From Pyruvatibacter mobilis (lineage in GTDB: Bacteria > Pseudomonadota > Alphaproteobacteria > CGMCC-115125), in NCBI RefSeq assembly GCF_012848855.1, contig NZ_CP051630.1:1901501-1965500 (forward strand): a stretch of 64,000 nucleotides of DNA, read 5' to 3'. Shown one piece after another: positions 30,345-39,129 of the stretch. The notes below the pieces were generated by a model. It worked only from the letters and a program-made list of their open reading frames with translations. It was not told where the DNA came from and searched no databases. Numbering within the stretch: position 1 is the first letter of the stretch; each line of letters begins with the position of its first letter. Made by a program: the position numbers and the translations under genes.

Positions 30345-30800
30345 CTAAATGCTGCTGCCCTGCTCGCGGCAGAAAAAGTGATCGCCGATGAGGGCCGTGG
30401 GAATCATCTGCGCGGACCAGGACGGCGTTTCGGAATGCAGGTGACAGGCTGTTGCGCCATCGACAAGGTCTTTCTCCTCTCCCGCAAAAACGCGGCAGAT
30501 GCTGGCCATAGCGCGGAAATGGGCGCGGGTGAGCTGGGACGGCACACCCACCGCATGGCCGGGCGGACAGGAGAGCTGCCAGCTGCCATCACCGAACAGG
30601 GGGTGGGCCGGGTTGCCCTTGCTGACATGGGCCAGGGCGTGGTCACGCCGGTTGCGGATCATCTGTGCTAGGGCCACGTAGGAATCTTCCGGCCCATTGC
30701 CCGCGAGACTGACCACCACGCAGGTCATGAAGAGAATGTCGTCATGCCCGGGCGGGCCGGCGACATCGGGGGGCGGCAGGTGGCGGATCGGCGTTGGCAC
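30345..30800 (-). CDS. SleB-like cell wall hydrolase (GTA/phage lysin), probably degenerate
   Basis: A 151-residue protein with the later motifs of the SleB/Hydrolase_2 family: ALAQMIRNRRDHA (usual VALVVLNR position), FGDGSWQLSCPPG (FSCW region), DLVDGATACHLHSETPSW (usually DPTGGATHYH...PRWA) and IGDHFFCRE at the end. In working members a catalytic Glu sits in a GEARGE or AEAGG motif just before the first of these; here the equivalent stretch reads VSLAGNGPEDS, with Leu in the Glu position. The start is a GTG at 30800. It lies 208 bases downstream of the holin gene, as expected for a lysis partner. Confidence 0.68.
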   Translation of the reverse strand: MPTPIRHLPPPDVAGPPGHDDILFMTCVVVSLAGNGPEDSYVALAQMIRNRRDHALAHVSKGNPAHPLFGDGSWQLSCPPGHAVGVPSQLTRAHFRAMASICRVFAGEEKDLVDGATACHLHSETPSWSAQMIPTALIGDHFFCREQGSSI

Positions 30801-31008: not shown

Positions 31009-31410
31009 TCAGGGACGGGCAGCCCAGTTGCGGACCGCCTTTTCCGTTGACCGGCCAATGACATACCCGCCGACGCCGACGGTGAGCAGGTTCCACATGG
31101 GCTCCGGCAGGGGCAGGTGCACGGCGACGCCAAACAGGAGCTCCATGTAGGGCGCCAGCAGGTAGTTGTTGATCAGGATGGCCGTGATCGACAGCATCAG
31201 GACAGGCCGCCACTGGGCAGCAAGCGGATGCTCGCTGCGGGCTTCGGCCTCAATGATGGCGCCGGCGGCACGGGCCAGCTCCCCCTCCCTCTCCAGCGCA
31301 AGACGCTGCAGATCCTGCTTCAAACGGGCGGCGAGATCGCGGTCGGACACCGATTTGTCGATCAGTCCGGCGACGGGGCCTGTGAGGAAAGACAGAATGG
31401 CGGACAGCAT
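31009..31410 (-). CDS. GTA-type 3TM holin
   Basis: A 133-residue protein matching the 'holin of 3TMs, for gene-transfer release' family: short hydrophobic N-terminus (LSAILSFLTGPVAGLIDK), a charged amphipathic helix (about 25-55), then AAQWRPVLMLSITAILINNYLLAPYMELLFG and a C-terminal VGGYVIGRSTEKAV segment. The WRP, NNY-APY and GRS-EK motifs are the conserved marks of the family. It would permeabilise the inner membrane so that the lysin reaches the wall. It follows the DUF2793 gene by 51 bases that contain an 11-base tandem repeat. Confidence 0.88.
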   Translation of the reverse strand: MLSAILSFLTGPVAGLIDKSVSDRDLAARLKQDLQRLALEREGELARAAGAIIEAEARSEHPLAAQWRPVLMLSITAILINNYLLAPYMELLFGVAVHLPLPEPMWNLLTVGVGGYVIGRSTEKAVRNWAARP

Positions 31411-31423
31411 CGGGAGGCTCCCT

Positions 31424-31466
31424 TGGCGTTTTCTGGGCGTTATCTGGGCGCTACCTGAGCGCTACT
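31424..31466 (-). repeat. Four imperfect 11-base tandem repeats before the holin start
   Basis: On the plus strand the units TGGCGTTTTC, TGGGCGTTATC, TGGGCGCTACC and TGAGCGCTACTG follow each other without spacers. The array covers the stop codon of the DUF2793 gene and ends ten bases before the holin ribosome-binding region, where GGGAGCCTCCC can itself fold. The position suggests slippage-prone DNA that sets the spacing between the two genes. Confidence 0.7.
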
Positions 31467-32166
31467 GGAAATCGGGGATCTGCAGGCGGGCGATATGGGC
31501 GGAGACCTGGACGCTGCCCCCGGTGAAGGGCACGTCCGGCGAGGTGAAACGGATCGGCGTGTCTGCCCAATAGACGATGGGCTGGGCGGGGCCGTTGAGC
31601 TGGGAATTGAGGCCGGTGCCGATGCCGTTGCCGAACCGCTGCGCGTCGCCGCTGACACCGACGGCAAAGCTGGCCGGGCCCGTGACCGGGTCCGTCACCA
31701 GGCAGGTGACACCGAAGAGAAGCGACCGCTGGGGGATGACGATGGCGGTGTCCGACGTGACAGCAGCGTCAAGCACATGAGTTTCGGCAATGGCATCGAA
31801 GAAGAGGGCCGAGCCGAAGGACGTGATCGCATGGCCCTGCCGCCAGCGGCCGTGCAGAAAGCGGGTATCGCTGCCCTCCTCCACGACAAGGCAGCGCCAG
31901 CCCTCCGGCGGGGGAAAGAACCGCCAGGCCCCGTCGTGCCAGGCGGCAATGCTGTGATCGTTACCGGCCCAGTCGCCGGTGGCGGCGGCAGGCACGAGGT
32001 AGCGGTCACCCTCCCCGGGGATTGCAGGTGGCGCGGTGAGGCTGCGGCTGATCACAGATAGCTGCACAAGCGCGTCCAGCATCATCAATGCATCGTTGTG
32101 GGTAACGTGCTTCTGCGCCTGGGCCGGGGCGATGACAGGCAGGGAGAGGGACGGCGTCTCAGACAT
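31462..32166 (-). CDS. DUF2793 family phage/GTA protein
   Basis: A 234-residue protein whose first 100 residues match DUF2793, with the hallmark LPVIAPAQAQKHVTHNDALMMLDALVQLSV, then GDRYLVP and HDGAWRFFPPPEGWRCLVV. The C-terminal half is beta-rich with a VGVSGDAQRFGNGIGTGLNSQLNGPAQPIVYW segment, like a tail-associated or carbohydrate-binding module. DUF2793 genes commonly follow GTA gene 15. Its start overlaps the gp15 stop by eight bases (ATGTCTGA), so translation is coupled. Confidence 0.88.
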   Translation of the reverse strand: MSETPSLSLPVIAPAQAQKHVTHNDALMMLDALVQLSVISRSLTAPPAIPGEGDRYLVPAAATGDWAGNDHSIAAWHDGAWRFFPPPEGWRCLVVEEGSDTRFLHGRWRQGHAITSFGSALFFDAIAETHVLDAAVTSDTAIVIPQRSLLFGVTCLVTDPVTGPASFAVGVSGDAQRFGNGIGTGLNSQLNGPAQPIVYWADTPIRFTSPDVPFTGGSVQVSAHIARLQIPDFQ

Positions 32167-35100: not shown

Positions 35101-35962
35101 AGGCCGGGCGGCCGTCGATGGTGGTGACCAGGTCCGCCGACTGACGGTCAAGGCCGGAGACGTGCCAGGTGGCGGGCGTTGTTGCCTGCCCCGCTTCGAC
35201 CACCTTGGGGCGCAGGGTGCAGGTGCCGGCACGCAGATCATCGCCGAACCAGGCCACGATAAGCCCGGCGCGGGCGAGGTTCGGGCAGGTGTCCTGCAAC
35301 TGGTCGATGGCCACGGTCCAATCGGTGGCACCGAGCGCGTTGTTGGTGTTGAGGGGTTCTGAAACGCCACCAGGGAACAGACGGGTTTGCGGCGCGGGGC
35401 TGTAGCCGAACTCAGTTGCGCCGGGGATGATGGTGACGGCGCGGATGAGGCTTTCAACGTCGTTCAGGGCACGGAACACTTCCACCTGCAATTGCGGCAG
35501 GCGGTTACCGTAGGGCGCAAGCGGCAGGCGCTCGAAGACCACATAGGCAAGACCGCGAAAGGCGGGGACGCGGCCTGCCCCTTCCACGGCTTCGATCAGC
35601 GGATCCGGACCTTGCGTCTCCGTGCCCGTGTGCAGGCGCCAGGCAATCTGGCTCAGATCCATCAGCTTGCCGTCGGCCCAGATGCGGCCGATGCGGGTGA
35701 TGGGGCCTTCGCACAGGCCGAGGGCGAAATTGCCGAAATAGCGGTACTCGATCGTGGTAATGCGCTGGGTCTGGGTGGTGGTGGCGCCGCTGCCGCTGCC
35801 GCCCTTGCCGCCTCCTGAAGAAGACGCCGTGGCGGTGGATTCAGTGACCGTCTCGACGATGTCCTCATCGAAATCGGTGGCCCAGATGAGCTGGCCGGAC
35901 AGACGCGCCCGCCCGAAGGCGCGGGGAATGGGCGCACCTTCGCTGGAGGACATGACCTGCAC
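32159..35962 (-). CDS. GTA host-specificity/tail megatron protein (gp15-like), N-terminally truncated
   Basis: A 1267-residue homologue of the Rhodobacter GTA gene 15 tail protein. It starts inside the conserved region (QVMSSSEGAPIPRAFGRARLSGQLIWATDF). Residues about 395-700 form the GTA TIM-barrel domain, with Glu422 (IGTEL) and Glu606 (WFTELGCP) in the positions of glycosidase acid/base and nucleophile. The phage-tail_3-type region follows at about 760-1150. The start shown is a GTG without a good ribosome-binding site. In-frame homologous codons continue upstream to a stop at 36035-36037, so the original N-terminus (tens of hydrophobic residues in relatives) is lost. The rest of the frame is intact. 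Confidence 0.9.
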   Translation of the reverse strand: MQVMSSSEGAPIPRAFGRARLSGQLIWATDFDEDIVETVTESTATASSSGGGKGGSGSGATTTQTQRITTIEYRYFGNFALGLCEGPITRIGRIWADGKLMDLSQIAWRLHTGTETQGPDPLIEAVEGAGRVPAFRGLAYVVFERLPLAPYGNRLPQLQVEVFRALNDVESLIRAVTIIPGATEFGYSPAPQTRLFPGGVSEPLNTNNALGATDWTVAIDQLQDTCPNLARAGLIVAWFGDDLRAGTCTLRPKVVEAGQATTPATWHVSGLDRQSADLVTTIDGRPAYGGTPSDTSVIEALQDLAARGLAVTFYPFIMMDIPPGNVLADPYTGLIGQPQHPWRGRITVDPAPGQPGSPDRSAAAAAQVAAFFGSARPGDFTVTGTNVTYAGPPEWSYRRQILHYAHLCKAAGGVAAFLIGTELRGLTWVRGNTGYPAVAALQQLAADVRQILGPATMLIYAADWSEYFGHQPTDGSGDVTFHLDPLWASPHIDVIGIDNYMPLADWRDGQGHLDALAGAPSTQDLAYLRGNIAGGEGFDWFYASDADRTAQTRTPITDGAAGKPWVFRYKDLVNWWSNPHVNRIGGTETGGQTAWVPRSKPIWFTELGCPAVDRGANQPNVFFDTKSAESHLPHFSRGLRDDVIQRQFLLAHHAHWHPSSADFDEADNPVSPLYGGRMVDPDAIHVWTWDARPWPAFPQATRLWSDGDNWRLGHWLTGRLGAVPLGRLVAVLMEAQGFGDYDVSGLSGLVDGYIIDRAMSARAALGPLMRAYFFDAVESEGVIRFIHRGSQPVLTTSTDTLAVETGSAAPPLSLTRAQETDLPAASKLSYIEADTGYRQAAIGVQRQTVKSDRVTGAALPVVLRQEEALRIAETGLQDSWIAREQASFALPPSALAVDPGDSITCAHNGRSHILRLMRISDGPFRAAEALAAEPGIFGPLSAPDRSAAGPAVASFGPVELLFLDLPMLRDGQVPHAPFIAATASPWPGGVALYRGTSPDDLTLDTALPAPAVMGEVLADLPAGPVGRWDRANRLQLRLYGGTLESVSTTALMGGANAAVIGDEATGFEVIQFREADLIAPDTYELSHLLRGQAGSEPEMHPLRAAGARFVLLGGPLRQPSLSEQEHGFPFLWRYGPAPAAISHPAYQAREITLAGRGLRPLSPVHLHACRDAAGDIHLTWIRRTRINGDAWEPLDVPVGEDAERYALTISAGGTVIHAAETTTPAFTYTAADQLADTGAPVTVLTVTIAQISRAYGPGTPAEATFHV

Positions 35963-36034
35963 GTCCGAGAGGCGCGGGCCTGCTGTAAGGCGCAGGCCGG
36001 CTGTGTGGGCGAGCCGGTTAGCTAGCGCGGCAGG
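35963..36034 (-). pseudogene. Untranslated remnant of the gp15 N-terminus
   Basis: Reading upstream in the gp15 frame gives PAALANRLAHTAG, then LRLTAGPRLSDV, directly joined to QVMSSSEGAPIP. GPRLSD-V is the sequence expected immediately before this point in GTA gene 15 proteins. No ATG, GTG or TTG occurs in these 24 codons before the TGA at 36035-36037, so they cannot be translated with gp15. The end of the kinase gene (stop at 36022-36024) overlaps this remnant, marking the junction of the rearrangement. Confidence 0.7.
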
Positions 36035-37266
36035 TCAATGCCGAAGCGCGCGCCGCTGGTTTCGCGGTTTTCAACCCAGGCCGTCCCGCCATGGGCTTCG
36101 GCGATGGCCTTGACCAGGGACAGGCCGAGGCCAGTGGCGACTTCACCGCCGGTGGGGGCTGCGGAGAGCGTCTGGAAGCGGCCGAAAACACGGGCCATGT
36201 CGTCGTCGGTAAGGCCGGGGCCTTCATCCTCGACGGTGAAGCGCAGGCGCGCGTCACCCGGCGAGGCGGCCACGCGGATGGCGCTGCCGGGCGGGGCGTA
36301 CTTGACTGCGTTGGAGACAAGATTATCCAGCGCTTCGATGAGAAGATCCTCATCGGCGGACAGGGTGAGACCGTCAGGCACGGCGACGGTGATGGCCATC
36401 TGCTTGCCGGCGGCATGATCCTGATTGAAGCCTATGGCGCGGGAGAGGACATCAGCCACACCCACCTCGGCGCGGTGCAGCGGCAGGGTTTCGGTCTCCT
36501 TGCGGGCCCGGTCCATCATGCCTGCGATGAGGGTGGACATGCGGTCCACGGCTTCGAGTGATTTTTCAGCGGCCTTGCGGATGTGATCGTCAGTGGCCGG
36601 AGCATCGGCTGCGAGTGCGGCGAGGATCGCGTCGCTGCGCAGGGAGATGGTTTGCAGGGCGCCGCGCATGTCGTGGGCGGCGAGCGCCAGAAGCTGGCTC
36701 TTGGTGGCGTTGGCGGCGCGGGCGGCGGCGGCGCGCCTGTCCAGCCGCTGATTGGTGCGGCGCAGGGACTGGATGAGCTGCTCCCGCTCCCGCTCCAGCC
36801 GCATGCGCTCGATTTCCGCCTGGGCGCGGACGCCATAGATGCGCAGGATGCGCTCCACCTGATCGGGAGACTCGATGGGGGTTTCGGACAGCACGGCCAG
36901 ATGGCCCTTCACTTCTCCGTCGGCGGACCACAGGGGCACCCCCGCATAGCCTTCATAGCCCTGCTCGACCGGAAACAGGCGGGCGACGTCGCAGGGGATG
37001 ACGACGGTGCGGCCTTCATAGACGCGCTGGCAGGGGGTGCCCGCCAGATCATATTCAAAACCCTGGGCGGTCTGGTTTTCGCGGACGACGAAGCGGGCAT
37101 GGGCACGCTCGGGCGGCGCGCCCACCGCTTCGGTCAGGAAGGCGACGGTGACGTCCATCGCGGATTGCAGGGAGCGCACCAGGGCAAAGAGAAACTCCTC
37201 CCCCACATGGGCGGCCACGCCTTCGGCGATGGCGAGCAGGACAGGCTCGTCAGCCGGGTTTGCCAT
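36022..37266 (-). CDS. GAF-domain sensor histidine kinase inside the GTA cluster
   Basis: A 414-residue soluble kinase started at the ATG at 37266 (ribosome-binding site GGCGGAGGA). A GAF domain (about 20-155) is followed by a coiled coil (152-190), a HisKA box with His198 in LAAHDMRGALQ and an HATPase domain with NLVSNAVKYA, DEGPGL and TGLGLS. No transmembrane segment, so it senses a cytoplasmic ligand or partner. No response regulator is adjacent. It occupies the place of GTA genes 3-14 between terminase and gp15, separated from terL by 107 bases. The C-terminus looks natural, so the kinase itself is complete. Confidence 0.9.
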   Translation of the reverse strand: MANPADEPVLLAIAEGVAAHVGEEFLFALVRSLQSAMDVTVAFLTEAVGAPPERAHARFVVRENQTAQGFEYDLAGTPCQRVYEGRTVVIPCDVARLFPVEQGYEGYAGVPLWSADGEVKGHLAVLSETPIESPDQVERILRIYGVRAQAEIERMRLEREREQLIQSLRRTNQRLDRRAAAARAANATKSQLLALAAHDMRGALQTISLRSDAILAALAADAPATDDHIRKAAEKSLEAVDRMSTLIAGMMDRARKETETLPLHRAEVGVADVLSRAIGFNQDHAAGKQMAITVAVPDGLTLSADEDLLIEALDNLVSNAVKYAPPGSAIRVAASPGDARLRFTVEDEGPGLTDDDMARVFGRFQTLSAAPTGGEVATGLGLSLVKAIAEAHGGTAWVENRETSGARFGIDLPR

Positions 37267-37373: not shown

Positions 37374-38693
37374 CTATAGGGGCCGCAACCGGGGGTTGCC
37401 CTGGCGGGCATCGAGCATGAGATCCGTCAGTGCCCAGACAAGCGCATCCAGCCTGTCCGGCGAGCCGGATTGTGCGGGCGCCGAGGGGTCGAACTCGCAG
37501 AGCTGATCCTCCAGTCGGCGGTGGGTGCCGAGGTGATGCACCCGCGCCTGTTCGTAAAGCGCGGCGACGGGTTCGGCCCGCACGGCCTTGCCGCGGGTGG
37601 CGCGCACGAGGCGGACCGGCAGGGCCGGGTCCACCTGGCGCAGCACGGCCGCAACCATCTCGCCGCCCTGATTGGCCTCGGCCACGACACGGTCGGCCTC
37701 GTGGCTGTGATAGGCATCGGCCACCCGCCGGGCCCAGCGGGCGGGGCTGAGGCCGCCCATGGACCGGTCAGCCAGGACATAGCCGTGGCCGTCCTCCCCT
37801 GCCCCGGCGACGACAATGCCGCATTCATCCGCAGACGGAGAAGACGAGGCCGGCGGGTCCACCGCGACGACGATCCGCTGCAGCGGCGGCACTGCCGTGA
37901 CGCGCGCACCATCGAGCATGGCGCGCTGCCAGAGGGCGCGGGGGTTATCCTCCAATATCTCCGCTTCGAGTTCCTGCCGCCCCAGGCGGGTGCCGTGATA
38001 GCGGCGCATGACGGCGCTCAGGAAACCCGGTGCCAGATTGGCCGCGTTGGCGCTGGTACCGGCGCGGCTGATACGAGTCATGTCGTCGGTCATCAGGCGC
38101 TTCAGGGCCGGGAGCGGACGCGGTGTGGTGGTGACAACCTGGCGGGGCCGGTCTCCCAGCCGCAGGCCGAATTGCAGCATGTCCCATGTCTCCTGCACAT
38201 GGCGCCATTTGGCGAACTCATCCGCCCAGGCGGCGTGGACCTGATGGCCGCGCAGGGCATCTGGGTCCTCCGACGAAAAGGCGAAGGCGCGGGCGCCGGA
38301 GGGCCATTCAAGCAGGCGCTTGGAGGCGACCCAGCGGGGGCGCGCGGCGGGCGGCGCGATGGCGATGAGGCCGGAGGGGCCTTCGATCATCACGTCGCGC
38401 ACATCGGCTAGGGTTTCGCCGACAAGGGCGATGCGGACGGGCTTACGGGCACAGGCGCGGATCCATTCGGCCCCGGCGCGCGTCTTGCCGGCACCGCGGC
38501 CACCGAGCAGCAGCCATGTGGTCCAACAGTCGGTGCCGGGCGGCGGCAACTGATCGTCGCGCGCCCAGACGGACCAGGTGTAATAGAGCGCTTCAGCTTC
38601 CCGCACCGTCAGGCTGCGGAGGAAGGCTGCCCTGTGATCGGGCGGCAGTGAGGCGAGCCACCCGCTCAGCGATCGCAGCGACGATACGGTCAT
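37374..38693 (-). CDS. terL: GTA/phage large terminase (gp2-like)
   Basis: A 439-residue large terminase. ATPase: Walker A GGRGAGKT (64-71), Walker B region AAWADEF (154-160) and a TTTPRPLPALKRLM coupling motif. RNase H-like nuclease: Asp279 in VVAVDPP, Glu339 in VVAEANQGG and Asp416 in SPDRLDALVW. All catalytic residues are present, so the packaging motor could be functional. The first part of the gene overlaps the small terminase by about 100 bases. It is the first large gene of a GTA cluster but is followed by a kinase instead of a portal gene. Confidence 0.93.
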   Translation of the reverse strand: MTVSSLRSLSGWLASLPPDHRAAFLRSLTVREAEALYYTWSVWARDDQLPPPGTDCWTTWLLLGGRGAGKTRAGAEWIRACARKPVRIALVGETLADVRDVMIEGPSGLIAIAPPAARPRWVASKRLLEWPSGARAFAFSSEDPDALRGHQVHAAWADEFAKWRHVQETWDMLQFGLRLGDRPRQVVTTTPRPLPALKRLMTDDMTRISRAGTSANAANLAPGFLSAVMRRYHGTRLGRQELEAEILEDNPRALWQRAMLDGARVTAVPPLQRIVVAVDPPASSSPSADECGIVVAGAGEDGHGYVLADRSMGGLSPARWARRVADAYHSHEADRVVAEANQGGEMVAAVLRQVDPALPVRLVRATRGKAVRAEPVAALYEQARVHHLGTHRRLEDQLCEFDPSAPAQSGSPDRLDALVWALTDLMLDARQGNPRLRPL

Positions 38694-39129
38694 GGTCGGC
38701 GGCGGTGTCCCTGTCCGGTGGGGTTGCCTGGCTGATGCGCTCGGACAGGGCCATCAGCTTGTCGAGCACCTGGGCGAGCGTGACGAGGAGCTTTGCTTCC
38801 CGCTCGCGCTCGGCGTCAGTGCGGCCAGGGTCCTTCGCGCAGTGTTCGAGATCGTCGATATTGGTCTGCAGGGCGCCGATGAGGCGGCTGAGCATAGCCA
38901 GTGACGGGTCCGGTGTCGGATCCGGTGGCAGCAGAGTCTCTCCGGCCGGTGCGTCCGTCTCCGGCGCGCGGCAGATGACCGGGAGACGGGGGCGGCGCTG
39001 TGGCCACTTCTCGGTCCTGACCCGGTGATAGAGCTGGGTCTGGGTTATGCCGAACAGCGCCATGATCTCGACGACCGTGAGCGCGCTGTCCCTGTAGGCC
39101 TGCTCGACGCCGGGCCAGTCTGGGGTCAT
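38593..39129 (-). CDS. GTA small terminase (gp1-like)
   Basis: A 178-residue protein with an N-terminal helix-turn-helix (TVVEIMALFGITQTQLYHRVRTEKWPQR, about 17-44), a Pro-rich linker (50-75) and a long helical oligomerisation region (about 78-165). This layout and the position directly before terL match GTA gene 1, the small terminase that recruits DNA to the packaging motor. Its end overlaps the large-terminase start by 101 bases. A probable promoter lies about 90 bases upstream. Confidence 0.8.
   Translation of the reverse strand: MTPDWPGVEQAYRDSALTVVEIMALFGITQTQLYHRVRTEKWPQRRPRLPVICRAPETDAPAGETLLPPDPTPDPSLAMLSRLIGALQTNIDDLEHCAKDPGRTDAEREREAKLLVTLAQVLDKLMALSERISQATPPDRDTAADHDRIVAAIAERVARLTAARSQGSLPPQPDGAGS

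Follow-up and report, generated by a model that had tools for sequence, protein, structure and literature searches.

The sequenced genome is a complete single contig of 3,333,914 bp, of which bases 1901501-1965500 were analyzed (this whole 64-kb stretch is the window, and positions are numbered within it). The minus strand of the window carries a reduced cluster of a gene transfer agent (GTA, a domesticated phage-like carrier of DNA) with the gene order terS-terL-histidine kinase-gp15'-DUF2793-holin, where gp15' denotes a truncated gp15. The features are listed below from terS to holin.

38593..39129, minus strand: terS, small terminase subunit-like (phrog_1206, E 1.4e-6; 49% identity to the gene in the matching position of the congener G001)
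37374..38693, minus strand: terL, GTA large terminase subunit, intact (Terminase_6N and Terminase_6C; 77% identity to G001 over 1-439 of 439)
36022..37266, minus strand: sensor histidine kinase (HATPase_c and HisKA; likely start ATG 37266, the ORF being open also from ATG 37359)
35982..36021, minus strand: spacer between kinase and portal, with the initial stretch of the portal leader; gives rise to the LRLTA codons and is no part of gp15
35981..35981, minus strand: deletion breakpoint (A from either side; 1 bp common to both edges)
35963..35980, minus strand: retained gp15 codons 66-71 (GPRLSD), probably untranslated; the same codons occur in the intact gp15 of L143, L144 and L213
32159..35962, minus strand: truncated gp15, a megatron homologue (1267 aa from the start at GTG 35962, 1264 aa from ATG 35953)
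31462..32166, minus strand: DUF2793 gene, directly 3' of gp15 (PF10983; syntenic in G001 and G012)
31009..31410, minus strand: GTA holin, 3TM (PF11351; syntenic in G001, 69% identity)

The ordered block of RcGTA-like clusters (terS, terL, portal, protease, capsid, tail genes and gp12-gp15) is present in near relatives and incomplete in the window, and a search of the complete sequenced genome with capsid and portal from G001 and hub from L144 returned no match. The chromosomal site is shared with relatives, as the flanks, consisting of a PBP and a CxxCxxCC gene and of SDR genes, are the same in G001 and G003, and those of the GTA site in G012 are largely the same as in the window. Beyond the holin lies a small ORF (30345-30800) with weak syntenic counterparts (~26-27% identity) in G001 and G012 and no Pfam match. 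Scans for promoters and terminators found none, and RNA structure spanning the junction was not significant (z -0.86).

A sequence-only reading of this DNA had proposed a deletion junction in front of gp15, with the break lying within a few dozen bases, and had recommended alignment with the intact gene of relatives, a comparison that sharpened the position to base 35981. The undeleted comparison set consisted of five IMG/VR contigs that retain the sequence on at least one side of the break and share 95-97% DNA identity with the window over the common parts; they were obtained by scanning viral contigs for matches to gp15 and to the kinase. They provide six junction loci from five records, since IMGVR_UViG_3300037589_000129 supplies both sides. 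All three kinase-side alignments (L214, L215, L216) stop at window position 35981, and all three gp15-side alignments (L143, L144, L213) start there, the sequence above this base being kinase 3' flank and portal leader, and that below it gp15 from codon 66 onward. In IMGVR_UViG_3300037589_000129, which spans the entire interval, the two edges are separated by 9,433 bp. On the left the break falls 11 nt short of the portal ATG and on the right at the final base of gp15 codon 65, and the lost segment comprises the genes from portal through gp14 together with gp15 codons 1-65. The same contig encodes the kinase, portal, prohead protease, capsid, tail completion, DUF2460, hub and NlpC/P60 peptidase proteins and a gp15 of 1338 aa.

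Both edges have a single A in common, which makes the position of the join ambiguous by one base, and with so little shared sequence neither homologous recombination nor a mobile element is needed to account for it. Edge repeats were rejected as a cause, with no 8-mer pairs between the edges among the matches listed and no repeat pair joining them. Hairpins beside both edges (arms of 8 bp and 7 bp) were rejected as well: G390, a near contig, lacks them at the matching edges, and perfect short hairpins are common in the window (23 with arms of at least 8, and 72 with arms of at least 7). This site very probably marks where an RcGTA-like GTA cluster recently suffered a simple deletion. It represents ordinary GTA decay, and the deletion itself is unremarkable.

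In the gp15 frame, the codons preceding GTG 35962 read ...LRLTAGPRLSDV and continue without a start codon back to a TGA (36037-36035) inside the 3' end of the kinase gene, the stop of which is TAG 36024-36022; the original description of this frame was accurate. These codons had also been taken as remains of the old gp15, which is true of the six codons GPRLSD (GPRLSDV with the GTG included) and untrue of LRLTA and everything above it. Homology to five aligned relatives starts at GPRLSD (35980-35963) in every case and never earlier, and G001 reads EGPRLSDLQVM at the gp15 counterpart. A wider set of 102 gp15 N-terminus rows was reduced to 90 usable ones after removal of 3 own copies, 5 duplicates and 4 unsafe frames. 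At least 4 of the 6 GPRLSD residues are matched in 34 of 86 usable relatives (mean 3.4 of 6), and for LRLTA (35995-35981) the mean over the 86 relatives is 0.33 of 5, with a best match of 2 of 5. An origin of LRLTA in gp15 was rejected, as the same DNA is kinase 3' flank plus portal leader in near relatives; the spacer at 35982..36021 matches the kinase-portal spacer of L214, L215 and L216, and the portal leader is still recognizable in G387, which has no kinase.

Loss of a hydrophobic N-terminus from gp15 had been suggested too, and is borne out by the hydropathy (GRAVY) of the lost residues 1-65, which is 0.61 compared with -0.15 for the remainder. The protein is 1338 aa long in an intact relative and 1267 aa from GTG 35962 in the window, and a start of the form (M/V/L)A-x-hydrophobic is found in 82 of 86 relatives. 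The megatron domain set is present in gp15' in the order GTA_TIM, Phage-tail_3 and Rcc01698_C, and residue 3 of gp15' aligns to RcGTA megatron residue 63 onward (6tba). Residue 1 of the intact gp15 of a near relative aligns to megatron residue 1, indicating that the whole N-terminal iris/penetration domain (the counterpart of RcGTA residues 1-46) is missing here, codons 1-65 having been deleted. In the RcGTA megatron, residues 1-46 constitute the iris/penetration domain, the helices of which close the tail channel and have been proposed to pierce the outer membrane (excerpts of PMC7296036).

With portal, capsid, hub and peptidase gone, particle formation would be impossible, and DNA-carrying particles are predicted to be absent from this strain since portal and capsid are missing; if no particle can form, the remaining genes would be relics that are still undecayed. 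The reading frame of gp15' is open over its full length and has kept all 176 near-invariant positions (83 relatives compared, conservation of 97% or more), an intactness that could alternatively reflect retained function. The dS of gp15 to the nearest intact relative is 0.114, which points to a young event, and the branch length of gp15' is 0.271 compared with 0.234 for G001. It is very unlikely that gp15', together with DUF2793, holin and terminase, has been retained for a new role. Such a role would fit the unchanged near-invariant positions and the codon changes in gp15' that are unique to the window, 6 of them nonsynonymous and 12 synonymous; under full neutrality more of the 18 would be expected to be nonsynonymous (P 0.0003). 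However, most of the gp15' branch may predate the deletion, the partners for tail-tip assembly are gone, and the 6:12 ratio leans toward relaxation when compared with 7 nonsynonymous and 43 synonymous changes in the intact relatives L143 and L144, although not significantly (Fisher P 0.09). A recent deletion would explain the conservation of gp15' without any new function.

An assembly artefact, in which the strain possesses a full cluster that was collapsed by the assembler, is somewhat less probable again. It would be consistent with the junction being found in one genome only: viral contigs searched with one exact 27-base pattern gave no further isolate carrying this junction, in a collection that favors viral-looking contigs and may omit near records. 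Against it, the genome is a complete, single-contig assembly, and neither a direct repeat of at least 8 bp between the edges nor a pair joining them was seen among the matches listed.

The gene that now precedes gp15' encodes a sensor histidine kinase with a HisKA phospho-acceptor domain and a HATPase_c domain. The gap between terL and portal is less than 300 bp in 84 of the 94 loci rows that have both genes (duplicates retained), and the kinase is held by three of these 94 rows (two records). In G387, where gp15 shares 77% identity with that of the window, the gap is 30 bp and has no kinase, and G001 also has none at this position. From the sequenced genome alone, where the kinase occupies the exact place of portal-gp14, and from its absence there in G001, it might be supposed that the missing GTA genes were exchanged for the kinase gene in a single insertion-deletion event, but this is refuted by the near contigs and retains hardly any probability: in G390 and G391 a kinase 98.7-99.1% identical separates terL from an intact portal, and in G386 it stands right in front of the portal, so that the insertion preceded the deletion.

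The kinase is likewise located between terL and portal in the otherwise intact near-relative GTA clusters of loci L214, L215, L216 and L218. Loci L228 and L266 have 2.3 kb and 1.4 kb, respectively, between terL and portal, without this kinase. Outside the lineage, the nearest kinases share 34-41% identity (from 385 genomes in the class, of which 5, counting the sequenced one, gave a match at 1e-40), and that of G012 is far from the GTA cluster of G012. Pairwise dN/dS values of 0.04-0.06 indicate that the kinase has been under constraint (strong purifying selection). Among the papers listed in literature searches for histidine or sensor kinases together with GTA terms, none was seen to describe a kinase gene at the terL-portal site, and the novelty of a kinase at this position is weakly indicated. 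It is conceivable, but rather unlikely, that the kinase gene became an integral part of the GTA structural operon and regulates, or answers to, the production of GTA, the strain having kept the kinase and lost the agent. If true, the GTA of this lineage would have its own sensor, and the kinase in intact near-relative clusters is a testable candidate for such a GTA-linked sensor.

That GTG 35962, the start selected by the ORF caller, is the normal gp15 start in this lineage can be dismissed, because in the intact gp15 of near relatives it is an internal valine (codon 72; ATG 35953 is codon 75) and in 86 of the 90 usable relatives the reading frame continues upstream without a stop for 30 codons or more; of the remaining four, three are interrupted by a contig end and one by the end of the locus (L010, for which the wider view L015 is open). 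No full-length homologue beginning at the same GTG, which had been named as evidence that would contradict a truncation, was found.

It had further been argued that gp15 lacks a good ribosome-binding site and may be poorly expressed. Scored against an anti-Shine-Dalgarno tail, GTG 35962 gives -3.2 kcal/mol and ATG 35953 gives -6.5, with a background median of -2.7, and the intact gp15 start in a near relative scores -1.7 kcal/mol. Since the start of the intact gene is also without a Shine-Dalgarno site, the deletion cost gp15 no such site; the argument does not discriminate, and an absent ribosome-binding site says little about the expression of gp15'. As to the suggested coupling of gp15 expression to the kinase, the distance from kinase stop to GTG is 59 nt, and that from gp14 to gp15 in the intact cluster is 27 nt. 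Taken together, the original observation at this junction is confirmed in part and its interpretation partly supported.

The comparison with the near contigs shows the following course of events. A cluster that was still intact first acquired the histidine kinase gene in its short terL-portal spacer, and about 9.4 kb, from 11 nt before the portal start through gp15 codon 65, were subsequently lost in the sequenced strain. Since then gp15 would be read, if at all, from the internal GTG 35962 or ATG 35953, and its product would be devoid of the iris/penetration domain.

The order holds only four genomes, all of one genus, and at least one other member has evidently lost its GTA. In the complete genome G003 the SDR genes come immediately after the CxxCxxCC gene. 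Relative to G001 (~90% identical there), G003 lacks 18,695 bp, and no more than two extra bases stand at the join (L137, G003:C1:896001-914000, around 4555); a clean deletion has removed the entire GTA cluster from this congener. No gp15, terL, capsid, portal or hub was found in the draft G002 (81% complete), which at most suggests a GTA loss. One genus thus presents an intact cluster (G001), a middle deletion (the sequenced genome) and a clean, whole loss (G003), making GTA loss visible at base resolution. Redfield and Soucy argue that GTA clusters are not easily maintained by the recombination they cause (excerpts of PMC6209664).

Among known systems, the megatron of the Rhodobacter capsulatus RcGTA (Rcc01698, g15; 6tba, 6teh) has the same domain set as gp15' (excerpts of PMC7296036), and the neighboring terS, terL and holin genes in the window resemble those of the RcGTA head-tail cluster. 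Unlike RcGTA, the window is without the iris/penetration domain and all genes from portal to gp14, and it has a histidine kinase gene between terL and gp15'. Remnant RcGTA-like clusters also occur in another alphaproteobacterium, Methylobacterium nodulans, as prophage remnants LC3 and LC4; the excerpts of PMC11409702 describe them as prophage remnants belonging to a multi-copy set, whereas the window has a single GTA-type cluster, the middle of which was lost in one event. In Agrobacterium, GTA-like clusters carry a lysozyme gene at the terL-portal position (same excerpts), where the extra gene of the window is a histidine kinase.
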